A stretch of DNA of 34,070 nt from Pseudomonadota bacterium (GTDB lineage Bacteria > Myxococcota_A > UBA796 > GCA-2862545). The translations under genes and the position numbers were made by a program. The notes beneath the pieces were generated by a model. The model had not been told where the DNA came from. It did not search any database and saw nothing but the letters and a program-made list of their open reading frames with translations. Below are positions 16,448 through 34,070 of the stretch, piece after piece. How positions within the stretch are numbered: position 1 is the first letter of the stretch; each line of letters starts with the position of its first letter. Where the stretch lies: contig CANLGQ010000009.1 in assembly GCA_947490265.1 (NCBI GenBank), forward strand, positions 1 to 34,070, given 5' to 3'.

Positions 16448-18493
16448 ATGCCGGCCGCATCCGTGTCAGGACTGCTAGGAATGATCGCCGCCCACCAGGA
16501 CCTGGGGCAGTACCAGGAACTGCTCTGGGAAGGCGGATTTGGCGACTACCTCGACATCGTCCGCCAGGATCCCGGCGTGGCGCGAAACGCCTACCAGCGA
16601 CTCTACGACCTCGTCGTGTCGTACGGGCACGAGGATTACACCGAGTACAAGAAGAGTATCCGTCGTTACACGTTCTTCGACGATCCCTTCGAACAGGGGT
16701 CCGATGCCGTGTTCGGACTCGACGTCCACCTCATGAAGCTGGTCCGCGTGCTGCACGCCGCGGCCCTCGGCTATGGCCCCGAGCGACGGGTGATCCTCCT
16801 CCACGGTCCAGTGGGCTCGTCGAAGTCGACCATCGCCCGGCTGTTCAAGAAGGGCCTGGAGGCGTACTCCCGCTCCGAAAAGGGACGGCTCTACAGCTTC
16901 GTCTGGGTGGACGCGAACGGGAAAGAGACGCCGTGCCCGATGAACGAGGAGCCGCTGAAGCTCCTGCCCGAGTCGACCCGACCCGCGGTGCTGAACGAGA
17001 TCAACGGCGGAAGCCGGACCCCGTACCCGGTTCGCCTCGAAGGCGACCTCTGCCCGGTGTGCCGACACCTGTACCGCGAGGTGATGCGCGAGGTCCACGG
17101 CGACTTCCTCGAGCTCGCCAAGCGAATCAAGGTGCGCCGGCTGGTGCTCTCCGAGCGCGACCGGATCGGGATCGGCACCTTCCAACCGAAGGACGAGAAG
17201 AACCAGGACTCTACCGAACTTACCGGCGACATCAATTACCGGCTCATCGCCGAGTATGGGTCAGACTCCGACCCCCGGGCGTTCAACTTCGACGGGGAGT
17301 TCAACGTCGCGAACCGCGGCCTCATCGAATTCATCGAGGTGCTCAAGCTCGACGTGGCGTTCCTCTACGACCTGCTGGGCGCCTCGCAGGAGCACCGAGT
17401 AAAACCGAAGAAGTTTGCGCAGACCCACATCGACGAAGTCATCCTCGGCCACACCAACGAACCCGAATTTCGGCGCCTACAGAACAACGAGTACATGGAG
17501 GCGCTGCGCGACCGCACGATCAAGATCGACGTGCCGTACATCACCCGCCCGAGCCAGGAAGCGCGGATCTACCAGAAAGACTTCAATCGCCGCAAAGTGG
17601 CGGCGCACATCGCGCCCCACACCATCGAAACGGCGGCCTTGTGGGCGGTGCTCACCCGGCTGGAAGAGCCCAGCAACCACAAGCTCAGCCTGATTCAAAA
17701 GGCCCGACTCTACGACGGACGCGCCATCCCCGGCTTCACCGAGGATCACGTGAAGGAGCTCCGAAAGACCGCGAAGCGCGAAGGTCTGGAGGGGATCTCT
17801 CCCCGCTACATTCAAGACAAGATCAGCAACGCCCTGGTGCGCAACCCGGGCGTCACCTGCATGAACCCGTTCATGATCCTGAACGAGCTCGACAGCGGCC
17901 TCGACCAGCACAGCCTGCTCTCCGGCGACGAACAGAAGGAGCGGTTCCGCGAGCTCCTGGGCGTCGTGAAGCAGGAATACGAGGACCAGGTAAAGAACGA
18001 GGTTCAAAAGGCAATCTCGGCCGACGAGGGCGCGCTCCGTCGGCTCTCCGGAAACTACATCGACAACCTGCGAGCCTATGTGCTGAAGGAGAAGGTGCGC
18101 AACGCATTCACCGGGGCAGCCGAGGAGCCGAACGAGCGGCTCCTTCGATCGATCGAGGAGAAGATCGACATCCCCGAGGGGCGGAAAGACGATTTCCGCC
18201 GCGAGCTCATGAACTACATCGCCGGGCTCGCGCTCGATGGAAAGACCTTCGACTACACGATGAACGAGCGCCTGCACCGGGCGCTCGAGCTCAAGCTGTT
18301 CGAGGACAGCAAGGACAGCATCAAGCTGACGAGCCTCGTGACGCAAGTGGTCGACGCCGAAACCCAGGCGAAGATCAACATCGTGAAACAGCGTTTGATC
18401 GACCACTACGGCTACTGCGAAACCTGCAGTTCCGACGTGCTCCAGTACGTGGCCAGCATCTTCGCCCGCGGCGATGCCTCTCCTCGAAAATAG
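16448..18493 (+). CDS. prkA: PrkA/YeaG family serine protein kinase
   Basis: [75 protein letters not shown]; followed by YeaH/DUF444 and SpoVR genes. RBS-like GAGGAGGAG upstream. Confidence 0.95.
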
Positions 18494-18509
18494 CGCTCGG
18501 AGGTGACCG

Positions 18510-19589
<1,080 letters not shown>

Positions 19590-19593
19590 CGCC

Positions 19594-21126
19594 ATGTCCC
19601 GGATGCCCAGTCGGTTCCTGCGCGAAGGCCGCCAACTCCCCGGCGAGCTCGAGGAGGCGCGACAGTCGATCGAGGCGCTCGCCCGAAGCTATGGCCTCGA
19701 TTTCTTCGACACGATCTTCGAGATGTGCACCTACGACGAGATCAACATGGTGGCCGCTTACGGTGGCTTTCCCACCCGGTATCCGCACTGGCGGTTCGGG
19801 ATGGAATTCCTCGAGATGCAGAAGTCCTATGAGTACGGCCTTTCGAAGATCTACGAGATGGTGATCAACACCGACCCCTCCTACGCCTACTTGATGGACT
19901 GCAACCTCGTCGTCGACCAGAAGCTCGTGATGGCCCACGTTTTCGGGCATGTCGATTTCTTCAAGAATAACGCCTGGTTTGCGCACACCAACCGCAAGAT
20001 GCTCGACGAGATGGCGAACCACGCGACGAAGGTTCGCAACGCGATGGAGAAGCACGGGACGGGCGAGGTCGAGGCCTTTATCGACCAGTGCCTCTCGATC
20101 GACAACCTGATCGACCCCCACGGGCCCCACATCGTCCGCCGCCGACCCATCGACGAGGACGCTTTGGACAGCGAAGCCCCCCGTGCCGACATCCCCAAGA
20201 TGCCGGCCCGCGACTACATGGACAAGCACATCAATCCACCGGACTACCTCGAGGACCAGCGCAAGCGCCGAGACGACGAGATACGGCGGATGAAGGGGTT
20301 TCCCGAGGAGCCGGTGCGCGACGTGATGGCGTTCGTGCTGGAGCACGCACCGCTGCCGCGCTGGAAGCAGGAAATCCTGCGGATGATCCACGACGAGGCC
20401 GAGTACTTCGCGCCCCAAGCCCAGACGAAGGTGATGAACGAGGGGTGGGCCTCGTACTGGCACACCCTGCTCATGACCCGCCATATCCTCGCTCCCAGCG
20501 AGGTGATCGACTACGCCGACCATCACAGCGGCACCACCGCCATGCGCCCGGGTCAGTTCAACCCGTACAAGATCGGGCTGGAGCTGTGGCGCCACATCGA
20601 GGAGCGCTGGAACAAGGGCCGCTTCGGGAAGGAGTGGTTGGACTGTGACGACCCCGTGCTGCGCCGGAACTGGGACACCGGCGCCGGCCTCGGCCGGGAA
20701 AAGATCTTCGAGATCCGGCGCACCCACAACGACATCACGTTCCTCGACACGTTCCTCACCGAGGACTTCTGCCGAGAGATGGGGTTCTTCACTACGAAAT
20801 TCGACCCGAAGTCGCGGGAGTGGTTGCTCGACAGCCGGGAGTTCCACGAGGTGAAACAAGGCCTCCTGAACCAGTTGGCCAGTCGAGGAAGTCCCCGGAT
20901 CTACGTCGTCGACGCGAACCACGAGAACCGAGGCGAGCTGCGCCTGTGGCACGATTACGACGCGCTCGATCTGCAGCTCGAGTGGGCCACCGTGACGCTC
21001 GGGAACCTCGTCTCCCTGTGGGGTGGGCGACCCGTGCACGTCGACACCCGCGTCGAGGGAAAGCCGGTGCGACTGACCCACGACGGCTCGGAGATGAAAC
21101 GACAGACCCGAAAGGAGGAAGAATGA
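19594..21126 (+). CDS. spoVR: SpoVR family protein (YcgB)
   Basis: YGLDFFDTIFEMCTYDEINMVAAYGGFPTRYPHWRFGMEF..., VMNEGWASYWHTLLM, NPYKIGLELWRHIEERW; operon context. Confidence 0.95.
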   Translation: MSRMPSRFLREGRQLPGELEEARQSIEALARSYGLDFFDTIFEMCTYDEINMVAAYGGFPTRYPHWRFGMEFLEMQKSYEYGLSKIYEMVINTDPSYAYLMDCNLVVDQKLVMAHVFGHVDFFKNNAWFAHTNRKMLDEMANHATKVRNAMEKHGTGEVEAFIDQCLSIDNLIDPHGPHIVRRRPIDEDALDSEAPRADIPKMPARDYMDKHINPPDYLEDQRKRRDDEIRRMKGFPEEPVRDVMAFVLEHAPLPRWKQEILRMIHDEAEYFAPQAQTKVMNEGWASYWHTLLMTRHILAPSEVIDYADHHSGTTAMRPGQFNPYKIGLELWRHIEERWNKGRFGKEWLDCDDPVLRRNWDTGAGLGREKIFEIRRTHNDITFLDTFLTEDFCREMGFFTTKFDPKSREWLLDSREFHEVKQGLLNQLASRGSPRIYVVDANHENRGELRLWHDYDALDLQLEWATVTLGNLVSLWGGRPVHVDTRVEGKPVRLTHDGSEMKRQTRKEEE

Positions 21127-21592: not shown

Positions 21593-23056
21593 GTGGACGT
21601 GTGGTTGGCCCTGTCCGTGAGCTTGGCCGCAGCCCGCATGCCTTGTGGGACGGAGGAGGCGCTCCGCCATGCGCCGCCACCGGCCCGCGCGCCGCGCGCC
21701 GCTGCGCCCCCGTCCGAACCCGCCCACCGCGACCCCTACGGCGTAGAAAACGTGAGAACCAGCGCTAATTTCGCCGTGCGATGGGGGCCCGACTACATCC
21801 CCGAGGAGCAGGTCACCCAGCTGTTGAACGCGATGGAGATCGCCTGGAGCGTCCAGGTCACGAACATGGGCCACCCGCGCCCGCTCGGGACCGACCAGTG
21901 GTACTTCAACGTGTACATCGGCAATACGGGGGGCGGTGCGCCCAGTATCGGCGACTTCGGCGGGTTTCAGACGTTCGACTCCGACGGCTACCCGATGATC
22001 GTGATGAACCCGCTCACCCTGGACGACGAAGACGGGGCGGAGGCCACCGCGATCCACGAGTTCTATCACGCCATTCAGAGCTCTCTCGGCCGCTACCCGT
22101 ATGCCGGCCTCGGCGCCTGGTACTGGGAGGCCACCGCCGAGTGGGCCGCCGCTTCGACCCGTCCCACCAACCCCGCCGTCGGCTCGAGCGCCTACGGGTA
22201 TGCGTTGCTCCCGGATCTGCCGGTCAACTTCTTCGACTACCCCGACTCGAACGCGCTCCAGGAGAGCCATCAGTACGGGGCCTTCCTCTTTCCGTGGTAC
22301 CTCTCTGGCCTCTTCGGCCCGGAGCTGATCCGCGACACCTGGGTGATTCCCGGGTCCTCCGACGACCCGCTCGAGGTCCTCCGGGAGCAGCTCGCGCTGC
22401 GGGGCGAGGACTTCGACGCGGTGTGGCTCGACCACATCGCCACCCTGGCCGCGTGGGACTTCCCCATGGCCGACCTGTGGCATGACGAGGTCACCTACCT
22501 GGCGAACTATGTGGGAAGTCGGCAATACGCCGGCGTCTTCTCCACGGATGGGCGGCACGAGCCCCTGCGACGCGAGGGCTGGGGCGAGGCCCCGGGACGC
22601 TACGGCTTCAACGTATTCGTGCTGCAAGACCCGCGGTTCGGCGACGTGGACATCGAGGTCACCGGCGACGCCCTGGGCGACGCCGGGAGTCCGGCCACGT
22701 TCGTGGCTCGGGTCGTCCACATCGACGGCTACGACGCCCGGTACACCCCGCTGGTGTTCGACGGCGCGACGGCCCGCGCGACGGTGCCGGTCGACGGCGC
22801 CGACCAGGTGCTGCTGGTGGTGGGGGCCCTCACCCCGGCAACCACCCACTGGGACAGCGAGACCTTCGCGTTCACGATGACGATGTCGATCGGGGAGCCG
22901 CCGGATCCCGGATCGGGTGGGTTGTCCATCGAAACCCCGAAACCGACCGAACCAGTGCCCTCGGTCTGTGCCACCGGTGCTGAGACGTGGAGCCCGCTGA
23001 CCTTGGCCGTCCTCCTGGCCCTCCGACGACGATCACGCGCCCCGAACCGCGTTTGA
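21593..23056 (+). CDS. Secreted HExxH metallopeptidase-like protein with MYXO-CTERM-like tail
   Basis: N-terminal hydrophobic segment; TAIHEFYHAIQSS, then GAWYWEATAEWAA; C-terminus SVCATGAETWSPLTLAVLLALRRRSRAPNRV (Cys - hydrophobic - Arg cluster). Start GTG 21593 or 21599. Confidence 0.75.
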   Translation: MDVWLALSVSLAAARMPCGTEEALRHAPPPARAPRAAAPPSEPAHRDPYGVENVRTSANFAVRWGPDYIPEEQVTQLLNAMEIAWSVQVTNMGHPRPLGTDQWYFNVYIGNTGGGAPSIGDFGGFQTFDSDGYPMIVMNPLTLDDEDGAEATAIHEFYHAIQSSLGRYPYAGLGAWYWEATAEWAAASTRPTNPAVGSSAYGYALLPDLPVNFFDYPDSNALQESHQYGAFLFPWYLSGLFGPELIRDTWVIPGSSDDPLEVLREQLALRGEDFDAVWLDHIATLAAWDFPMADLWHDEVTYLANYVGSRQYAGVFSTDGRHEPLRREGWGEAPGRYGFNVFVLQDPRFGDVDIEVTGDALGDAGSPATFVARVVHIDGYDARYTPLVFDGATARATVPVDGADQVLLVVGALTPATTHWDSETFAFTMTMSIGEPPDPGSGGLSIETPKPTEPVPSVCATGAETWSPLTLAVLLALRRRSRAPNRV

Positions 23057-23057
23057 G

Positions 23058-26000
23058 TCAGGGCGTTCGGCCGCCGATGGACGCCCAGGTCTCGTCGGCC
23101 AGGGCCGTGAGCTCCGCGGAGAATCGCCCCGAGAAGCGATCCTCGGTCCGTCGGGCGAGCTCAGCCGCCTCGACCCGATTCCCCCCCCGAGCCAGCGTGC
23201 TCGCCAGCCGAAGGGCGAACTGGATCTCGAGGTTCGATCCCGTCCCGCGCAGCGCCTCAGCCGCCTCGTGGGCGCACGTGCGCGCATCGTCCGAATCTCC
23301 CCGAGCCAGCGCAACGTCGTGAAGGGCCCATAGCAACTCGGCCTCGACCGCTCGCCAGCCACCGCCCCGCGCGGCCACCAGCCCAGATCGAAGCCAGGGT
23401 TCGGCCTGCTCGTGCTGCCCGAGCCTGGCGAGGCCGCGTCCGAGCACCCCGTGGCAACGACCGACCCACAATGGTTCGCGCACCGCAAAGATCCGGCACG
23501 CTTCCAGGGCGAGTTCGGTCGCATCCTCACCGGCCTCGAAACGCGTCGTTGCGAGACCCATGCGCACGAGGCCAGCCAACCGGGAACCCAGATCCGTCTG
23601 GAGCGACTCCGCGCGCTCCCAGGCGGCGCGGGAGCCCGGGAGGTCACCGCGCAGACCCAGGGACGTTCCAAGCGCGCAAAGCACCCGCGACTCGAGGTCT
23701 TCGCTCGCTCCCTCGACTCGGCGCGCCGCCGCGAACAAGCGCGGGAGCGGATCCTCGCCGGTGTGCACCGCGAGTTGGCTCGCCACGATCGCGTACTCGG
23801 CGTGCCGAAGGTCGTGTAGGGGGATCGCAGCGGCGGCGGCAGCGGCTGTCCACAGGTCGAGAAGCCCCTGGCACTCGCCGACGTTGCCGACGTTCACCGC
23901 CTCCGCGGCAGCCGCCTGAAGACCGGGCAGCGCATCGGCGGGACGCCCCGCACCCACCAGGTGGCGACCCCGTCGACCGTCGCTCCCCGGACCGGTGGAC
24001 ACTTCAGCGCACGCCTCGTGCCACCAATGGGCACGGCCCGCGCTGACCGCCGCCGCGCACAGCGCCTCGCGAAACGGTGCGCTCCCCAATTCGGGGGGCA
24101 GCGCCTCGACCGGAGGAACGACCCCCGCGGCCAAACACGCCGCGCGCCAGGTGGCCTCGGACGCCCCGGCTCCGAGGGTGGCGGCGATCTCCCATGCCGC
24201 GCGCCGCTCGGTGCCCAGTGGGGCGAGAACCTCGATGCGAGCCAGCTCGATCGCGCGAACATCCTCCGGGAGCGAGACCGCGAACTCGGGCCGCAGTGCA
24301 AAGCCCTCGTCGGTCACCACCAGCTGATCCCGATCGGCGAGCCACCGAAGCAACCTCACCGCAAAACCCGGGTTTCCGTCCGCTCGGCGGGCGAGCCCGA
24401 CTCGCGTCATGCGCTCGAGGGGAAGGAGTCGATCGAGGATCGATTGGACCTCCAGGTCCGACAGGGGGCCCAACGCTAGGCCGGCCTCGAGGTGTAGGGC
24501 AGGGGGTCGGACCGCGGCGGCGAGCACCAGCGCACCCGCCTGGATCCACCCGGTCACGACCGGAAGGTCGGCCGGCTCCAGGTCATCGGCGAGTACCACC
24601 CGAGGCCGACGCCCGCTGCCTGGCGGGATCGCGCCAAGGCGCACGACCTCGGCCGCGCCGCTCGCCAGGCACAGCTCCCCAAAGGCCCGGAGAAAGTGAC
24701 TTCGACCCACCCCGGGGGGCCCCGTCGCGAGCACGCAGGCGCCGGGCCCACCCGAGGCGATCCGGGCGAGGGCCTGCCACGCGAGGTCGACCGCCTCGTC
24801 GCGGCCGACCAGGGGTGACACCCGCGCCGCCAGCAGCCCCTCCCCGAGGCCGCTCAGGAACGGCGTGGGGGGAGAGACCCCAATCGACCGCCAACCCGGC
24901 GGAAACGGGGCCGGCGGTGGCCGCGGGCGGGACGCGGGCGGCGGCAGGGGGCTCAGGTCGCCCACCGGGGTGATGCGCGTGGAGCCGAACGCATCGGGGA
25001 GTGCGACCGCGGCGGGCGCAAGCGAGCGGCTGGGGCCCGGCGGCGACCGCGCCGGCCCGAGGGCGGACAGCGCTGCGAGCGCGTCCGCGGCTGTTTCGAA
25101 CCGGTCGATGGGTGCTTTCTCCAGCAACACCCGAAGCCAGGCCTCGAGCCCCTCCGGCACCTCCATGGCGGGAACCAACGGCGGGATCGGCGCGCCACAT
25201 TGGGCGAGGAGGAGCTCCACCGGGTCGGATCCCCGAAACACGGTTTCGCCTGTGACCAGGCGCCACACCAACCCGCCCAGTGCGTACAGGTCCGTCCACG
25301 GGCCGATTTCGTCCGTCCTTCCCCGCGCCTGCTCCGGAGCGAGGTAGGCCGGGGTCCCAAACGCGCAGCCGCTCCGGCGCGACATCATGCCGACCAGTCC
25401 AAAGTCGGACAGCCGAGCCGAACTTGGGTTTCCCGTAGCGTCGAGGAGCACGTTGTCGAGCTTGACGTCGAGGTGGAGCACGCCCCGGGCGTGGGCGTGG
25501 GCAAGGGCCCCGAGCATCGCCTCCGAGATCTGGCGAACCTCCCGCCACCCCCACCGATCGGCGTGCCGGGCCGCCACGCCGCCCCCCATGTACTCCATCA
25601 CCAGGCAGGGGCTGCCCTCGGGCTGCCCCAGCATCGCCCCCGCGCCTGCGTCCAGCCGCAGGAACGCCAGCGTCTGCACCACGTGCGGGTGATCCAGGCT
25701 GGCTACCGCCGCGACCTCGTCCGAGAACAGAGCGTCGAGATCACCGTGATCTCCCCCCGCATCCAGGCGAAGCACCTTGAGCGCCACGTCTCGACCGGAG
25801 GCGCGGTGCACGCCCCGCCACACCTGACCCATTCCCCCTTCCCCGAGCAGATCCCCGACCGAGAACGGCCCCACCGGCACCCCGGCGCCTCGCCCTCGGA
25901 GCACCACGAGCTGCGGAAGCGCCACGTCCTGCGCGAGGCCTGCACGCCGCGCGAGCTGGAGCGCCAACGCGGCCCGATCCGGGTCGCCCTCGAGCCGGCG

Positions 26001-27050
26001 CACGCACAACTGCAGCGCCCGAATCGCGATGACGTCTGAGCGAACCCGATCGAGCGCCCGCTCGACCTCAGCGAGCGCGCGATCCAGGCCGGCCCGGTCT
26101 CCCCGCGTGGCCGCGATCGCGGCGACCACCGCGCGGAACGACAGGTCACCGAGGAGGGCCGGATCGGCCTGAGGAAGCGACTGTTCCGCGAGGTCTGGTT
26201 CGCCGATGCGGATCCAGGCTTCGGCGAGGAGCAGAGCACCTTCTCGCGCGGCGGCTCCGGGTGGAGGAGAGACATCGGCCAACAGCCCGATGGCCCGGCG
26301 CGGATCGTCGTCGATCAGCGCAAGTCGGGCCGAAAGGACCGTGGCCTCGGCGCCAAACAGCGGGCTGGACCCCAGCAGCGGCTTGGCCCGCCCGAGGAAG
26401 GTCGCAGCCTCGGCCGGATCGCGACTGGCCAGCACGAGGGCGAGGGTCATAAAAAGCGGCGCCAACGGTGTCTGGTTCGGGATGCCCTCCATCCGGCTGA
26501 TTGCCGACCGCAACTGCCGCTCGGCCTCCTCGCTCCGCCCGAGCCGCATCAAGCAGGTCCCCGCACCGTACTCGGCATTGGCCTCGCCATAGGCGTCGCC
26601 CAAAGCGCGGTACCGTCCCGCGGCCGCAGTGTAGCGCGCGGCAGCTTCTCCGAAGATCTCGCGGTGCTCCAGGGTAGACGCCAAGAACCGCTGACCGTGG
26701 GCCAAAACCCACGGATCTACGCCGATCTGAATCGCCCGCTCCAAGGGCGGCGCCCCGCCCATCGCGTCGCCCACCATCGCCCGGGCCGTGCCGAGCCCGA
26801 GCAACGCCAGAGTGAGCACGGTCGGATCGCCCCGGGCCGCATCGAGTTCGGCCACGAGGGGCTCGAAGCGCGCGGCGGCTGCGCGCGCGTCTTCGCCGAG
26901 CGCAGCCCACGCCTCCGTCAGCCGGACTTCCGCACGACCCGGTGTCACCGGGCCATCCAGCAGGGCGATTGCACCCCGGACGTCCCCTGCGCGGAACCGT
27001 TCGATGAGTTCGGCCTCGGGACCGCTCACGAGAAAGCCATGCTCTGCCAC
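23058..27050 (-). CDS. Multidomain TPR-like / protein kinase / AAA-type NTPase / TPR-like protein (paralogue A, about 1330 aa)
   Basis: GTG start at 27050 (VAEHGFLVSGPEAELIERF) chosen by alignment with paralogue B, trimming the track's 27500 start. Kinase: LGEGGMGQVWRG, VALKVLRL, VLHLDVKLDNVLLD, LSDFGLVGMM, GTPAYLAPEQARG. NTPase: PLVGRDEAVDLAW, ATGPPGVGRSHFLRAF, RPRVVLADDLEPA. Confidence 0.9.
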   Translation of the reverse strand: MAEHGFLVSGPEAELIERFRAGDVRGAIALLDGPVTPGRAEVRLTEAWAALGEDARAAAARFEPLVAELDAARGDPTVLTLALLGLGTARAMVGDAMGGAPPLERAIQIGVDPWVLAHGQRFLASTLEHREIFGEAAARYTAAAGRYRALGDAYGEANAEYGAGTCLMRLGRSEEAERQLRSAISRMEGIPNQTPLAPLFMTLALVLASRDPAEAATFLGRAKPLLGSSPLFGAEATVLSARLALIDDDPRRAIGLLADVSPPPGAAAREGALLLAEAWIRIGEPDLAEQSLPQADPALLGDLSFRAVVAAIAATRGDRAGLDRALAEVERALDRVRSDVIAIRALQLCVRRLEGDPDRAALALQLARRAGLAQDVALPQLVVLRGRGAGVPVGPFSVGDLLGEGGMGQVWRGVHRASGRDVALKVLRLDAGGDHGDLDALFSDEVAAVASLDHPHVVQTLAFLRLDAGAGAMLGQPEGSPCLVMEYMGGGVAARHADRWGWREVRQISEAMLGALAHAHARGVLHLDVKLDNVLLDATGNPSSARLSDFGLVGMMSRRSGCAFGTPAYLAPEQARGRTDEIGPWTDLYALGGLVWRLVTGETVFRGSDPVELLLAQCGAPIPPLVPAMEVPEGLEAWLRVLLEKAPIDRFETAADALAALSALGPARSPPGPSRSLAPAAVALPDAFGSTRITPVGDLSPLPPPASRPRPPPAPFPPGWRSIGVSPPTPFLSGLGEGLLAARVSPLVGRDEAVDLAWQALARIASGGPGACVLATGPPGVGRSHFLRAFGELCLASGAAEVVRLGAIPPGSGRRPRVVLADDLEPADLPVVTGWIQAGALVLAAAVRPPALHLEAGLALGPLSDLEVQSILDRLLPLERMTRVGLARRADGNPGFAVRLLRWLADRDQLVVTDEGFALRPEFAVSLPEDVRAIELARIEVLAPLGTERRAAWEIAATLGAGASEATWRAACLAAGVVPPVEALPPELGSAPFREALCAAAVSAGRAHWWHEACAEVSTGPGSDGRRGRHLVGAGRPADALPGLQAAAAEAVNVGNVGECQGLLDLWTAAAAAAAIPLHDLRHAEYAIVASQLAVHTGEDPLPRLFAAARRVEGASEDLESRVLCALGTSLGLRGDLPGSRAAWERAESLQTDLGSRLAGLVRMGLATTRFEAGEDATELALEACRIFAVREPLWVGRCHGVLGRGLARLGQHEQAEPWLRSGLVAARGGGWRAVEAELLWALHDVALARGDSDDARTCAHEAAEALRGTGSNLEIQFALRLASTLARGGNRVEAAELARRTEDRFSGRFSAELTALADETWASIGGRTP

Positions 27051-27109
27051 CCTGGTTGGGGGGACCCTACCGCGCCTGAGCGCGCCGGCCGGGGGCGAGC
27101 ACGGTGGCC

Positions 27110-30100
27110 TCAGGGGCCGAGGGCTTGGCGGGCCTCGTCGGACAGCGCACGGAGCGCCGCGGTGAACCGACCGAGAAAGCGGTCCTCGGTGCGCTGGAGG
27201 AGCGTCCTCGCCTCGGCGCGCTCGCCGGCGCGAGCCAGCGCGCTGGCCAACCGGAGGGTGTGTTCGAGCTCGTGCCTCGATCCCGTCCCGCGCAGCGTCT
27301 CGAGGGCGTCGCGGGCCCAGGACAGGGCGAGGAGCGGGTCGCCACGCGCCAGGGCGCCGTCGTGGAGCGACCAGAGCGCATCCGCTTGAGCCCCTCGCCA
27401 GCCCGCCTTCCGCGCCGCTGCAAGGCCCAATCGAAGCCACGGCTCGGCGTCGGCGTGTCGCCCGAGCTGGGCGAGCCCCCGCCCCACCACGAGGCGACAC
27501 CGCTCAGCCAGCGCCGCGTCGTGCCGGGCGAGGATCAACCCCGCCTCGAGCGCGAGATCGGTCGCATCTTCTCCACATTCGAAGCGGGTTGTCGCCATAC
27601 CCATGCGGGCCAGTCCGGCCCAAATCGACCCCGAGTCGGCTTCCAGGGCCACGACCCGCTCGAACGCGGCGAGCGAGCCCGCCCGGTCGCCGTGGTTCCT
27701 GAGCTTCCCGCCGAGCGAGTAGAACACCCTCGATTCCCGGTCGCCACCTGTTCCTTCGACGCTCCGCGCCGCCTCGCGCAGTTGCGGGAGCGCGTCCTCG
27801 CCGGTGTGATCCGCCAACGTACTCGCGACCACCGCGAAGTCGGCGCGGCGTGGATCGTCGTTGGCGATCGCCGCCGCGGCCGCGGTGGCCGACCACAGAT
27901 CGAGCAAGCTCTGGCACTCGGCCACATCGCCCGCATTCACAGCGTCTGACGCTGCCAATCGAAGGAGGTTCAGCGCCTCCTGGAGACGCCCGGCGCCCAC
28001 CAGGTGCCGACCGCGACGGCCCTCGTTCTCCCGGCCCGTGGACACCTCGGCGCACGCGGCGTGCCACACGTGGGCCCGGCCGGCTGTTGCCGCCGCGGAG
28101 CAGAGCGCCTCGCGAAAGGGCGCGCCCGCCAGCTCGGCGGGTAGCCCCTCCGGCGGCGGCGCCACCCTCGCCACCGCGCAGGCTGCGCGCCACGTGGCCT
28201 CGGACGCGCCGGCCCCGAGCGTGGCGGCGATCTCCCAGGCCGCCCGCCGTGCGGTTCCCAGCGGGGCCTGGGCCTCGATGCGAGCGAGCTCGATCGCGGC
28301 GACATCCTCCGGGATCGACGCTGCGAACTCGGGCCGCAGTGCGAAGCCCTCGTCAGTCACCACCAACTGGTCGCGGTCGGCGAGCCAGCGAAGCAGCTTC
28401 ACCGCAAAACCCGGGTTTCCATCTGCCCGACGCGCGAGCCCTATCCGCGTCATTCGCTCGAGGGGAAGCAGCCGGTCGAGCACCGACTGGATCTCCAACT
28501 CCGACAACCCCCGCAAGGACACGCTCTCCGAGAACGGCCCCGCAAAGGGACGCACCCCGGTAGCGAGCACCAGCGCGCCCTCTCCGATCCACCCGGTCAC
28601 GAGGGGAAGCCCGGCCGGCTCGAGGTCGTCGGCGAGGACCACCCGCGGCCGACGGCCCGGGCCCGGCGGCACCGACCCGAGGTTCACCACCTCAGCCGCC
28701 CCGCTCGTCCGGCACAGCGCGCCGAACGCCCGGAGAAAGTGGCTTCGACCGACCCCGTGGGGCCCCGTCGCGAGCACGCACGCCCCGGGCCCCCCCGAAG
28801 CGATTCGGGCAAGCGCTCGCCACGCGAGCTCGATCGCGTCGTCGCGGCCGACCAACGGCGACACCCGCGCCGCGAGCAGCCCCTCCCCGAGTCCGCTCAG
28901 GAACGGCGGGGGGGCCGAGCCCCGGAACGACCGCCAGCTCCCCGGAAACGGAGCGGGCGGGGGACGCGCGCGGGAGACCGGCGGCGGCGCCGAGTCCAGG
29001 CCGCCCACCGGGCTGATGCGCGTGGAGCCGAATGCATCCGGCAGCCCGGCCGCGGCCGGCACGACCGGCTGGGCCGTCCGCGGATCGGCCCGCGCGGGCC
29101 CGAGGGCCGACAGTGCGGCGAGCGCGTCCGCCGCCGTTTCGAACCGTTCGACCGGTGCTTTCTCCAGCATCACCCGAAGCCAGCCCTCCAGCCCCTCCGG
29201 CACCCCCATCCGGGGAACCAACGGAGGGATCGGCGCGCGGCACTGGGCCACGAGGAGCTCCACCGCATCGGCGCCGCGAAACACCGTCTCGCCCGTGACC
29301 AGGCGCCACACCAGCCCGCCCAGCGCGTACAGATCTGTCCATGGGCCGATCTCGTCCGTGTTTCCCCGCGCTTGCTCGGGCGCCAAGTAGGCCGGGGTGC
29401 CGAAGGCGCAGCCGCTTCGACGCGACATCATGCCGACCAGTCCGAAGTCCGCGAGTCGCGCCGAGCCCGGGTCTCCCGTGGCGTCGAGCAACACGTTGTC
29501 GAGCTTCACGTCGAGGTGGAGCACGCCCCGGGCGTGGGCATGGGCCAGCGCCCCGAGCATGGCCTCGGCGATCTGCAGCACGTCTGGCCACGCCCACCCC
29601 TCGGCATGGCGGCCCGCCGCGCCACCCCCCACGTACTCCATGGCCAGGCACGGGCTGCCCTCGGGTTGCCCCAACATGGCCCCCGCGCCCGGGTCGAGAC
29701 GCAGGAACGCCAGCGTCTGCACCACGTGGGGGTGATCCAGGCTGGCCACTGCTGCCACCTCGTCCGAAAACAGGGCGTCTAAATCACCTTGATCTCCGCC
29801 CGCATCCAGCCGGAGGACCTTCAGCGCCACCTCCCGACCCGAGGTGCGGTGCACGCCCCGCCACACCTGCCCCATCCCGCCTTCTCCGAGCAACTGCCCC
29901 ACCGAGAACGGCCCGACCGGCACTCGGGCGCCGCGCCCTCGAAGCGCCACCAGTTGAGGAAGCGCCACCTCGGCAGCCAGCCCGGCGCGCCGCGCGAGCT
30001 GCACCGCCAGCGCCGCGCGATCGGGGTCGTCGTGCAGGCGCTGCGCACACCAGGACAGCATGGGAACCGCGGTCACATCGGAGCGAACGCGGTCGAGACC

Positions 30101-31096
30101 GCGCTCCACCTCGGCGAGCGCCCGATCGAGGTCGCCCTGGCCGCCCCGCAGGACGGCGATCGCGGCGGTCACGGCGCGGAAGGACAGGTCGCCAAGAAGG
30201 GTCGGATCGGCCGCCGGGAGCGCCTGCTCGGCGCGCTCCGCGTCCCCGAGTCGGACCCACGACTCGGCGACCAGCACGGCGCCTTCGCGCATCGCGTCTT
30301 CGGGGAGTGGACCCTGCCCCAGCAGCGCAAGCGCGGCGCGTGGATCGTCGCGCAAGAGCGCCAGCCGCGCGGACATCAGCTCCACATTGGCGAGTTCACC
30401 TGCGTGCGATCCCGCTCGCTCCCGGGCCCGCTCCACCAGCCGAACCGACTCGGCCGGGTCGCGCCCGGCGACGGCCAGGGCCAGCATCAGCAGGTGCGTT
30501 GCGGCGGGTCGCGCCGTGGGGAGGGCCTCGTACCGGTGGATCGCCGACCGCATCCGGCGCTCTGCCTCGTCCGAGCCACCTAATCTCATCAAGCACAGCG
30601 CGGCGCCACACTCGGAGCTCGCGAGCCCCCAGTCGTCGCCCCCGACCCGGTACCCCGCGGCCGCGGCCTCGTAGCGCGTGGCGGCCTCCGCGAAGGCCTC
30701 CCGAACCTCCAGGGTGATGGCAAGCAATCGTTGGCCATGCGCCTGGATCCAGGAGTCGGCCCCGACCTGAATCGCCCGCTCCAGCGGCGGCGCGGCAGCC
30801 AGCGGCTCGCCGAGCATCGCGCGAGCGCTCCCAAGCCCGAGCAGCGCGAGGGCGAGCCGCACCGGATCGCCCGGCGACCCGTCGAACTCCGAGACAAGAG
30901 GTTGGAAGAGCGCTGCCGCCGCTCGAAAGTCGACTCCGAGCACCCTCCACGCCTCGACGAGCCGGACCTCCACGCAACCTGGCGCGGCTGCGCGACACGC
31001 CTCGAGAAGGCCAAACGCGCCCGGGAGGTCACCGACCCGGAGCCGCTGGACGAGCTCGGCTTCGGGACGGCTCACGAGAAACCCATGCACAGCCAC
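27110..31096 (-). CDS. Multidomain TPR-like / protein kinase / AAA-type NTPase / TPR-like protein (paralogue B, 1328 aa)
   Basis: Same architecture as paralogue A: LGEGGMGQVWRG, VALKVLRL, VLHLDVKLDNVLLD, LADFGLVGMM, GTPAYLAPEQARG, PLVGRDDAIELAW, ATGPHGVGRSHFLRAF, RPRVVLADDLEPA. GTG start at 31096. Confidence 0.9.
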   Translation of the reverse strand: MAVHGFLVSRPEAELVQRLRVGDLPGAFGLLEACRAAAPGCVEVRLVEAWRVLGVDFRAAAALFQPLVSEFDGSPGDPVRLALALLGLGSARAMLGEPLAAAPPLERAIQVGADSWIQAHGQRLLAITLEVREAFAEAATRYEAAAAGYRVGGDDWGLASSECGAALCLMRLGGSDEAERRMRSAIHRYEALPTARPAATHLLMLALAVAGRDPAESVRLVERARERAGSHAGELANVELMSARLALLRDDPRAALALLGQGPLPEDAMREGAVLVAESWVRLGDAERAEQALPAADPTLLGDLSFRAVTAAIAVLRGGQGDLDRALAEVERGLDRVRSDVTAVPMLSWCAQRLHDDPDRAALAVQLARRAGLAAEVALPQLVALRGRGARVPVGPFSVGQLLGEGGMGQVWRGVHRTSGREVALKVLRLDAGGDQGDLDALFSDEVAAVASLDHPHVVQTLAFLRLDPGAGAMLGQPEGSPCLAMEYVGGGAAGRHAEGWAWPDVLQIAEAMLGALAHAHARGVLHLDVKLDNVLLDATGDPGSARLADFGLVGMMSRRSGCAFGTPAYLAPEQARGNTDEIGPWTDLYALGGLVWRLVTGETVFRGADAVELLVAQCRAPIPPLVPRMGVPEGLEGWLRVMLEKAPVERFETAADALAALSALGPARADPRTAQPVVPAAAGLPDAFGSTRISPVGGLDSAPPPVSRARPPPAPFPGSWRSFRGSAPPPFLSGLGEGLLAARVSPLVGRDDAIELAWRALARIASGGPGACVLATGPHGVGRSHFLRAFGALCRTSGAAEVVNLGSVPPGPGRRPRVVLADDLEPAGLPLVTGWIGEGALVLATGVRPFAGPFSESVSLRGLSELEIQSVLDRLLPLERMTRIGLARRADGNPGFAVKLLRWLADRDQLVVTDEGFALRPEFAASIPEDVAAIELARIEAQAPLGTARRAAWEIAATLGAGASEATWRAACAVARVAPPPEGLPAELAGAPFREALCSAAATAGRAHVWHAACAEVSTGRENEGRRGRHLVGAGRLQEALNLLRLAASDAVNAGDVAECQSLLDLWSATAAAAAIANDDPRRADFAVVASTLADHTGEDALPQLREAARSVEGTGGDRESRVFYSLGGKLRNHGDRAGSLAAFERVVALEADSGSIWAGLARMGMATTRFECGEDATDLALEAGLILARHDAALAERCRLVVGRGLAQLGRHADAEPWLRLGLAAARKAGWRGAQADALWSLHDGALARGDPLLALSWARDALETLRGTGSRHELEHTLRLASALARAGERAEARTLLQRTEDRFLGRFTAALRALSDEARQALGP

Positions 31097-31140: not shown

Positions 31141-31243
31141 GCGCCCCGGCCATCTTGATCCCGGCGATGTGGCCGGTTACCCGGACGGGTCGGCGCCGCC
31201 CGCAACTTCGGGTGGCCCGCATAACGGTTTAAGGCGGGTTATC

Positions 31244-34070
31244 ATGAGTATGGTGGATACTGCGGTGGCTGCCGGCCGCTGTGCGGTGGCCGTGTCGGGG
31301 GCCTTGTTGCGCGATGCCGACGTCATGCTGGCGCTCACCGAGCGGCCGGGCCTCTCGGCGCTGGCCCTCAGCGGCCCGGCCCAGGCGCCGGTAGCGGCGG
31401 TCGGAGAACCTGGCCTCGCCCCCGCGCTGCAGCGCGACGGCGTGCTGGTGCTGATCGAACCCGAGGGTGCCGATGCGGTCGGCGTCGAGGCCATCGTCAA
31501 GCACCTCGATCGCGCAAAGGCGAAGCCGACCATCGTGGTGGTCGCCCGCGCCTGGAACCCCTTCCAGTTCCCGAAGCTCTCGGGGTTCAAGGTCGTTCAC
31601 GAGAAGGGCCGAGGCAAGCCGTACGTTCAAGGTCTCCCGAAGGGCCCGCCCGCGTCCACCGTCGGCGCCCCGGACGCCGAGGTCGAGGCGGCCCCCCGCG
31701 CACCGGCGCCGGGCGAACCGGCCGCGCCGCGCTTCGCGTTCGTCGGCCGCGAGGACGATCAAGCGGCCCTCGTCGCGTTCCTGGGCGAGGGCGGACCCAT
31801 CGCGGTCAGCGGAGCGCGCGGGATCGGTCGGAATTGGCTCGTCGAGCACGCGATCGCCGCGACGTCGCTGGTCCGCCTGCCGGATCTGTCCCTCGGTTGG
31901 GGCACCGGCTTCGACGTGCTGATCGCCCGGCTGGCCGAGCTGTGCCGAACCGCCGGGAGCCCCGAGCTCGCCACCGCACTGACCGCCGGCGCGCTGCCCC
32001 CCGAAAAGATCGACACGGTCGTCTCCACCCTCGCCAAAGCCGACCTCGCCGGGAAGGTGATGGTGGTGCGGCACCTCGAATTCGGCCTCGGTCGCGAGCC
32101 CGACTTCTTCCGGCGGAGCCGCCTCGAGCTCCTGCTCGAAGCGCTCCTCTGCGGCTCGTTCTCTCTCCGACTCGTCTTCGTGTCGACCCGGCAGCCCCAA
32201 TTCCACCGGGAAGGGGCGGCCGTCGGACTGCGTCGTCTGGAAGTCGGCGGGATCAAAGGTCGCTTCTACCAGGAGATCTTCTCGGCCTACAAGGCGCCCG
32301 AGTTCCCCCGAGATCGCTTCGGCCCCATGCACGAGAAGCTGCACGGGCACCCGGTCGCGATCCGGGTCCACGCCATCGCCGTGCGCGACCGGCCCGATGG
32401 ACTCGCCTTGACGGAGGACCCGCGTTTCCTCAAGCTCGACTCTGCCGAAGACCTCGATGCCGTCGGTAAGCAGATCCAAAAGAAGCTGGAGCGCCTCTCC
32501 GACGAGAACCGCAAGCTCCTCTCGCGGCTCGCCCACTGCCGGATCCCGGTGCCAGGCGGCCTCCTGTCCGACCTCGGCGTCTCGCGGAAGGCTCGGTTGG
32601 AGCTCCTCGCCGACGGCCTGCTCGACATGATCGGCACCGAGAACGACAAGAAGTATCGGGTCCACGAGCTGGTTCGCGAGCACCTGTCGTGGCGCGAGAT
32701 CACCGACTTCGACGTGTTCGCGGGCCTCGCCGAAATCTACGGAAAGCTAGCCCGCGAGGCGACCGATCCGATCGAGAAGCTCGCCTTGGTGCAGGAGACG
32801 AACCGCTGCGCGTTCGGCGCGCGGAACAAGAACCTCGCGATGCGACCCGAGTTCCCCGATCACGACCCGCTGCTCGAGGCCGCCATCGGCATGATCCGCA
32901 GCGACAAGCCGCGTTTCGATCTGGCGGGCGAACGGATCGCCGAGGTTCTGAGCCGCGATCCGACGAACAGCGACGGCTGGCTGCTCGAGCTCGAGCGACT
33001 CGACCGAAGCGAAGCACGGCCCGAAGACGTGATCCTGGTCCTCGACCAAGCCCTGGAGAAGGCGCCGGTCCCCGAGCTGTTCCAGTGGGGAGCTGGGTTC
33101 TGGCTCGGTCGCAAACAGCGCCCGAAGGCGATCGCGCTCCTCGAGAAGGCGATCCCGCTGTTGCCGCGCGAGAGCCGGCTGCGCACGCGGCTCGCCTCCC
33201 TTCTGTTGCGCCAAGGCCGCCGGCCGGAGGGCATCGCCCACCTCGAAGAGGCGATGCGGCTCGATCCGCTGCTCCCCGACAGCTACGGCCTGCTCGGACA
33301 GGCCCGCCGCGACGAGGGCGCGCTCGAGGTCGCGGAGACGCTCCTTCGCGAGGCGGTTCGACTGGCCCCCGACGACGCGACGCAGTGCGGCCGGCTCACC
33401 GATCTGCTGATCGCCCGGGCCCGGTCCGCCGAGCCCACCGAGGCTGCGTCGCTCCGCGAGGAGGCGAAAACCTTGCTCGATCCACTGATCAAGGGAGAGC
33501 GGAAGAATGCCGAGGCGCACCTGCTCCTCGCTCGGTTGGTCCGCGAGAGCGGCGGTGACCTCGAGCGGGCCGCTTGGCTGCTCAAGAAGGCCAAGAAGCT
33601 CTCGGATCGGCACAGCGAACGGCACTACCGGATCGCCTACGAGGAAGTGCTCCTCGACGCGATCGCCGGCAACCTCGACCCGGCCGAGTCCGCCGCCCGC
33701 GAGATCTGCGCGCGCGACCCGGCGGGTCACCGAGGCTTCTCGGTGCTCGGCCAGGTGTTGGCGATGCGCGAGATGTATGTCGCCGCCCACGCCGAGTTCC
33801 TGCGGGCGAAAGAGCGCGTGGCACAAGACAGCCTGGAAGCCCGTGAATATGACGACGCGCTCGCCCGGATGCAGACGATGATCGAGGTTCAGGCCGCCCG
33901 GCTCTACGCGGGCGACGACCTCGAGACGCTGCCGAGCGGGCCGAGCCTGGCCGCGTCGACCCGGGTGATTCGCCGCCGCAAGGAGGAGTCGGCACCGCCG
34001 GTGGCCGTCGAGGCCGTCGAGGCCGTCGAGGCCGTCGAGGCCGTCGAGGCCGTCGAGGCCGTCGAGGCCG
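31244..34070 (+). CDS. STAND-like NTPase with C-terminal TPR array; 3' truncated by window edge (not in supplied ORF track)
   Basis: Manual translation from ATG 31244 gives an uninterrupted frame to the window end (>=942 codons): MSMVDTAVAAGRCAVAVSGALLRDADVMLALTERPG...RFAFVGREDDQAALVAFLGEGGPIAVSGARGIGRNWLVEHAI...LRLVFVSTRQPQFHREG...KKYRVHELVREHLSW...PKAIALLEKAIPLLPRESRLRTRLASLLLRQGRRPEGIAHLEEAMRLDPLLPDSYGLLGQARRDEGALEVAETLLREAVRLAPDD. No stop in this frame, so a stop-bounded ORF caller omits it. Confidence 0.85.
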   Translation, partial: MSMVDTAVAAGRCAVAVSGALLRDADVMLALTERPGLSALALSGPAQAPVAAVGEPGLAPALQRDGVLVLIEPEGADAVGVEAIVKHLDRAKAKPTIVVVARAWNPFQFPKLSGFKVVHEKGRGKPYVQGLPKGPPASTVGAPDAEVEAAPRAPAPGEPAAPRFAFVGREDDQAALVAFLGEGGPIAVSGARGIGRNWLVEHAIAATSLVRLPDLSLGWGTGFDVLIARLAELCRTAGSPELATALTAGALPPEKIDTVVSTLAKADLAGKVMVVRHLEFGLGREPDFFRRSRLELLLEALLCGSFSLRLVFVSTRQPQFHREGAAVGLRRLEVGGIKGRFYQEIFSAYKAPEFPRDRFGPMHEKLHGHPVAIRVHAIAVRDRPDGLALTEDPRFLKLDSAEDLDAVGKQIQKKLERLSDENRKLLSRLAHCRIPVPGGLLSDLGVSRKARLELLADGLLDMIGTENDKKYRVHELVREHLSWREITDFDVFAGLAEIYGKLAREATDPIEKLALVQETNRCAFGARNKNLAMRPEFPDHDPLLEAAIGMIRSDKPRFDLAGERIAEVLSRDPTNSDGWLLELERLDRSEARPEDVILVLDQALEKAPVPELFQWGAGFWLGRKQRPKAIALLEKAIPLLPRESRLRTRLASLLLRQGRRPEGIAHLEEAMRLDPLLPDSYGLLGQARRDEGALEVAETLLREAVRLAPDDATQCGRLTDLLIARARSAEPTEAASLREEAKTLLDPLIKGERKNAEAHLLLARLVRESGGDLERAAWLLKKAKKLSDRHSERHYRIAYEEVLLDAIAGNLDPAESAAREICARDPAGHRGFSVLGQVLAMREMYVAAHAEFLRAKERVAQDSLEAREYDDALARMQTMIEVQAARLYAGDDLETLPSGPSLAASTRVIRRRKEESAPPVAVEAVEAVEAVEAVEAVEAVEA
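34007..34070 (+). repeat. Perfect 9-bp tandem repeat GTCGAGGCC, 7 full copies, continues past window edge; encodes (VEA)n
   Basis: Counted directly from 34007 to 34069 plus the first base of the next unit; in frame with CDS 31244. Confidence 0.97.

Follow-up and report, generated by a model that had tools for sequence, protein, structure and literature searches.

Bacterial STAND proteins are now mostly studied as immune genes of patchy distribution. They rest as ADP-locked monomers whose NOD is kept closed by the sensor and the arm; once an inducer is encountered, ADP is exchanged for ATP and the protein oligomerises (PMC6468293; PMC10427625). In the resting form, the His of the winged-helix domain bonds the beta-phosphate of ADP (PMC10427625). 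Described systems include PH0952 of Pyrococcus horikoshii, which is a STAND with a TPR sensor (PDB 6MFV), the chromosomal regulators of the MalT, AfsR and AbsR2 type, the AP-ATPases Apaf-1 and CED-4, the Avs antiphage STANDs, and the iSTAND domains of vWA-MoxR ternary systems, in which the catalytic residues are lost (PMC7159879).

The window analysed here, a whole contig of 34,070 bp, carries at its end a plus-strand gene whose product resembles each of these systems in part (Table 1). With PH0952 it shares the NOD-arm-TPR layout and a region preceding the NOD; however, the sequence alignment of the two covers the FVGRE/P-loop region only, and the present protein has its own features in a conserved alpha/beta N-domain and eroded Walker motifs. 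Like the MalT, AfsR and AbsR2-type regulators, it combines a NOD with an arm and a TPR-like sensor, whereas a DNA-binding domain of the HTH (LuxR-type) or SARP kind was found neither in the window protein nor in five near full-length orthologs. Apaf-1 and CED-4 provide the best fold match of the NOD core, but their CARD and WD40 were not found here, and a TPR sensor and a Rossmann-like N-domain are present instead. The loss of catalytic residues recalls the iSTAND domains, yet the gene mostly stands alone across its loci, and MoxR and vWA are absent among the recurrent neighbours scanned with Pfam. The Avs proteins have the general effector-NTPase-TPR order in common with it; unlike them, the present gene is not patchy, lies outside a defence context and has a weaker fold match to Avs3.

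Table 1. Features of the STAND-like gene and its product, in window positions
Feature	Position	Strand	Remarks
STAND-like TPR protein	31244..34070	+	942 residues present, C-terminal tail cut by contig end
N-terminal alpha/beta (Rossmann-like) domain, no confident relative	31244..31660	+	residues about 1-139; AF2, alignment
Nucleotide-binding domain	31736..32260	+	residues about 165-339: FVGRE box, P-loop G-x-x-G-x-G-R, eroded Walker B (VMVVRHLE), sensor strand LRLVFVSTR
P-loop SGARGIGRNWL (residues 189-199)	31808..31840	+	catalytic Lys replaced by Arg196
Walker B equivalent KVMVVRHLEFGLG (residues 271-283)	32054..32092	+	acidic residue replaced by Arg276
Helical domain	32261..32470	+	residues about 340-409; GxP motif HGHPVAIR (367-374)
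Winged-helix domain	32471..32737	+	residues about 410-498; MHD-like motif YRVHELV (471-477), His474 invariant
Arm and TPR repeats	32738..33865	+	residues about 499-874
Basic motif RVIRRRK (residues about 907-913) and low-complexity VEA tail	33962..34070	+	conserved in kind among orthologs
9-bp tandem repeat	34003..34070	.	7.6 copies, 100% identical; contig ends here

A real gene begins at ATG 31244, and its open reading frame continues past the contig end. Its 942 open codons extend to the last full codon of the window, and because the window spans the entire contig, the gene is truncated and its stop codon, absent from the assembly (a source genome of 3.76 Mb in 316 contigs, 77.5% complete), cannot be read. 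The contig breaks off in the 9-bp repeat that encodes the VEA tail, and assemblies commonly break at tandem repeats. Near full-length orthologs end 920–1078 residues past the start in similar low-complexity tails, so that the missing part probably amounts to about 100 disordered residues and little more. The gene was missing from the ORF track of the initial annotation, probably because ORFs running off an end are listed on request only.

The domain order proposed in that annotation, namely N-domain, NTPase, winged helix and TPR, is backed by homologs, structure models and fold searches, and the motifs named there are in place, with FVGRE at residues 166–170, SGARGIGRN at 189–197, LRLVFVSTR at 308–316, a winged-helix region, and TPRs at about 590–870 that belong to TPR families in Pfam and the PDB. 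In the AF2 model of residues 158–545 (pLDDT 94.4, pTM 0.92), nucleotide-binding, helical and winged-helix domains together form a NOD as in the STAND superfamily. Also as in that superfamily, a repeat sensor domain follows the arm. The best PDB fold matches of this core are Apaf-1 (8.2e-12), PH0952 (1.5e-10, TMq 0.57), CED-4 and MalT (9.1e-9, TMq 0.61). Avs3 is found at rank 29 (5e-6) with a poor superposition (rmsd 22 A). Taken singly, the proteins score close to the curated Pfam cut-offs or beneath them: for the window protein alone, only TPR families exceed them and AAA_16 is reached at E 0.084, while AAA_16 is matched by 38 of the 41 orthologs (best 2.2e-8) and nSTAND6 by 24 (best 1.6e-7). 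No mention of nSTAND6 was found in the literature searched. Members also match the NCBIfam models AbsR2 (12/41) and FxSxx_TPR, and PH0952, at 2.6e-7, is the only strong profile match among solved structures. Beyond the TPRs, nearly all orthologs carry a basic motif, which reads RVIRRRK in the window protein and RREPGKTxxRRRR-like in other families, followed by an acidic tail rich in Ala, Glu and Pro.

The N-domain is confidently modelled (pLDDT 94.2, pTM 0.86), and A7, G11, R12, C13, R34, G66, D77, P95, N105 and K121 are conserved in the alignment. Neither profile nor fold searches matched it to a known effector: Foldseek against the PDB gave no match at E<=0.001, a viral fold library gave nothing significant, and Pfam gave scattered weak matches only. 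Its closest fold lead is the middle domain of ThDP enzymes, a DHS-like NAD/FAD fold, with TMq 0.50–0.54 (1upa 0.50, 4fee 0.54) and insignificant E-values; hhalign against TPP_enzyme_M gave a probability below 10%, lending no profile support, and this identity was rejected. A SIR2-like domain was rejected as well (probability below 1% against SIR2_2), though the PF13289 matches used in the comparison represent part of the SIR2-like proteins only. A pseudo-receiver was suggested by the beta-alpha order and by two weak matches, one with CpaE2 (E 0.13) and the other with a response regulator (E 0.32), and was discarded after an hhalign comparison with 30 receivers from the same order (Response_reg) returned a probability below 1%. 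For all three comparisons, the SIR2_2, ThDP-enzyme middle and receiver domains were taken from the same phylum.

Motif conservation was counted over 41 orthologs in the numbering of the window copy. The P-loop-like SGARGIGRN noted initially does exist, although the replacement of the P-loop Lys and of the Walker B acid had been overlooked. The P-loop glycines are kept in 40–41 of 41 members, G190 and G195 being invariant, while position 196 is occupied by Lys in 17 and Arg in 24, with at least 7 switches between the two on the gene tree. The following residue is Ser or Thr in 13/41 only, GK[ST] is found in 5/41, and the window copy reads GRN. At the Walker B acidic position, there are 10 Asp, 2 Glu and 18 His among the 41, and the window copy has Arg, lacking the acidic residue typical of STANDs; a single member combines Lys, Ser/Thr and an acidic Walker B. 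The GxP motif (G368 41/41, P370 37/41), R374 (41/41) and the winged-helix His474 of the MHD motif (41/41) are all retained as in STANDs, and the sensor strand is conserved alongside them. Given the Walker B replacement, the protein is called degenerate and STAND-like here and is not classed with the catalytically typical STAND ATPases. Walker residues vary by family, with f2 keeping mostly Lys and Asp, and the label degenerate is not equally apt for all members; the window copy, with Arg196 and Arg276, lies at the eroded end of the range.

A protein search of 141 related genomes yielded full-length or contig-broken matches at 43–66% identity in the same family and 31–43% in the same order, and TPR-type matches only elsewhere. 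The N-domain profile finds a single copy per genome in 58 of the order's 63 genomes, one of which carries the domain as two partial pieces, and none in 8 genomes from other orders of the class. Among the five genomes of the order lacking it, four are 72–86% complete and one is 92% complete. With a core profile run over 189 genomes of the phylum, strong matches were confined to the order, and those outside were weak and lay mostly in the P-loop region. One scan of genome contigs returned a TPR match in an acidobacterium only, and thus no ortholog in a named organism. Moreover, the gene tree recovers the families in 6 changes, the minimum being 5. The gene is a vertically inherited core gene, unlike the scatter of defence genes. 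In one locus (L061, G048:C119:13000-32000), the ortholog is interrupted by an in-frame TGA and the same genome holds a second N-domain fragment on contig C62; both may be a bin artefact.

Building on the layout, fold, motif conservation and erosion, and distribution computed above, we favour, with moderate confidence, an order-specific, single-copy, vertically inherited STAND-type switch that is resident in the cell and binds nucleotide with little or no hydrolysis. The layout is the same as that of published STANDs, and the same style of switching is proposed, with its nucleotide-binding, oligomerisation, signal and output steps inferred. The nucleotide, probably ADP, would be held in the NOD by the P-loop glycines, the Lys or Arg and the invariant winged-helix His. 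Hydrolysis would be weak or absent because the Walker motifs are eroded, and the state of the switch would depend on bound ligand and on contacts between domains. Binding of a cellular signal to the TPR/arm region would then open the NOD and allow it to oligomerise. The N-domains would thereby be clustered, perhaps along with the basic tails, and would act on a target, for which a housekeeping or stress function is more likely than phage defence. We further suggest, tentatively, that the protein is a STAND-derived hub fixed as a core gene of the order, with no canonical ATP hydrolysis, an N-terminal output domain of an undescribed family and a possible coupling to nucleotide-excision repair. 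A STAND with degenerate Walker motifs, in one copy per genome across an order, would show that this switch can also serve as a conserved, resident part of cell physiology. The erosion in f1 and f4 and the partial retention in f2 would then provide natural variants with which to test to what extent STAND switching depends on ATP hydrolysis.

The Lys of the P-loop and the acidic Walker B residue vary repeatedly, which could also mean that the NOD no longer binds nucleotide and just holds the other domains together as a structural TPR scaffold, and inactive STAND domains (iSTAND) are known (PMC7159879). The P-loop Arg may abolish nucleotide binding entirely. Against such a pseudo-STAND, all or nearly all members retain the P-loop glycines, the GxP motif, the winged-helix His and a positively charged residue in place of the Lys or the Lys itself, as is expected if the pocket still contains a nucleotide; we consider the scaffold unlikely. 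The conserved motifs rather suggest a nucleotide pocket that is still in use, with hydrolysis reduced or lost.

The genomic neighbourhood raises the question of a regulator linked to DNA damage or repair, as uvrC, uvrB, an AlkZ-like glycosylase and an XPB-like helicase occur among the neighbours. In 15 loci (12 of f1 and 3 of f4), uvrC is the divergent gene upstream. These f1 and f4 loci lie to either side of the midpoint root in the gene tree, so the linkage could well be ancestral. Additionally, 4 f1 and 3 f2 loci have uvrB no more than about 6 kb away, the AlkZ-like DNA glycosylase gene is located directly downstream in three f2 loci, and the tail of the protein bears a basic patch. The linkage may, however, reflect slow rearrangement alone, divergent genes do not form an operon, the window copy has kinases upstream instead of uvrC, and f3, f5 and f6 usually have another protein as the divergent neighbour. 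A repair regulator appears unlikely, and the linkage is treated as a lead only. Cluster C2 often supplies the divergent neighbour in f3–f6, a protein that showed no Pfam match in the two copies scanned; members of the cluster (L054:7886-10111:+, L055:3074-4471:+, L064, L051 and others) have stretches that look kinase-like by eye, and the protein may be a pseudokinase whose tail is acidic or repetitive. MopE-type and kinase-rich neighbours are also seen, which would be compatible with Myxococcota.

The initial annotation had suggested, as its own inference, a link to the antiphage Avs proteins, whereby the TPRs would sense a phage protein and the N-domain would serve as a killing effector, as in Avs or bNACHT-like STANDs. 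The effector-NOD-TPR order and the STAND fold are compatible with this proposal, and the gene evolves faster than the neighbouring uvrC (45–49% mean identity within a family, as against 58% for UvrC). However, the PADLOC profiles of defence STANDs gave no match to the protein at E<=1, Avs3 ranks low in the fold search, the catalytic motifs are eroded, and Pfam scans of the recurrent neighbours detected no recognised defence gene. Effectors are usually exchanged among defence STANDs, whereas the N-domain here is identical in kind across members; in place of a patchy, mobile distribution in defence islands, a single, vertically inherited copy is found order-wide in a stable chromosomal neighbourhood. 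A gene conserved throughout an order can nonetheless be an immune gene, but an antiphage function is not supported and we regard it as improbable. PADLOC matches of the neighbouring kinases were set aside as evidence of defence, being generic matches to Ser/Thr kinases.

Lastly, the view that the plus-strand ORF is spurious, to which the long minus ORFs at 31229–32683 and 32747–33826 might lend some credit, is refuted by codon-position GC, by a plus frame conserved across the order and by confidently folded domains. GC by codon position is 0.76/0.46/0.88 in the plus frame and 0.87/0.47/0.76 in the minus ORFs, and such a mirror image is the pattern expected for shadow ORFs in a high-GC genome. 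Compared on both strands, this measure favours the plus frame, and the minus ORFs are shadows of the plus-strand gene, as originally claimed; the further claim of at least 942 open codons missing from the track is confirmed by frame, GC and orthologs. The start is shared as well, since orthologs across the order align from the same ATG. A longer ORF of 1113 aa from TTG 30731 was rejected, its extra N-terminus being unsupported and extending into the divergent kinase gene. The upstream neighbours of the STAND-like gene in the window are two genes in tandem (23058–27500 and 27110–31096, both on the minus strand; ORFs of 1480 and 1328 aa) that combine TPR, Ser/Thr kinase and AAA_16 and apparently arose by duplication. 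Further upstream on the plus strand, a DUF6055 protein is encoded at 21593–23056, and the trio PrkA, DUF444 (YeaH-like) and SpoVR occupies 16448–21126 in a conserved arrangement known in other bacteria.
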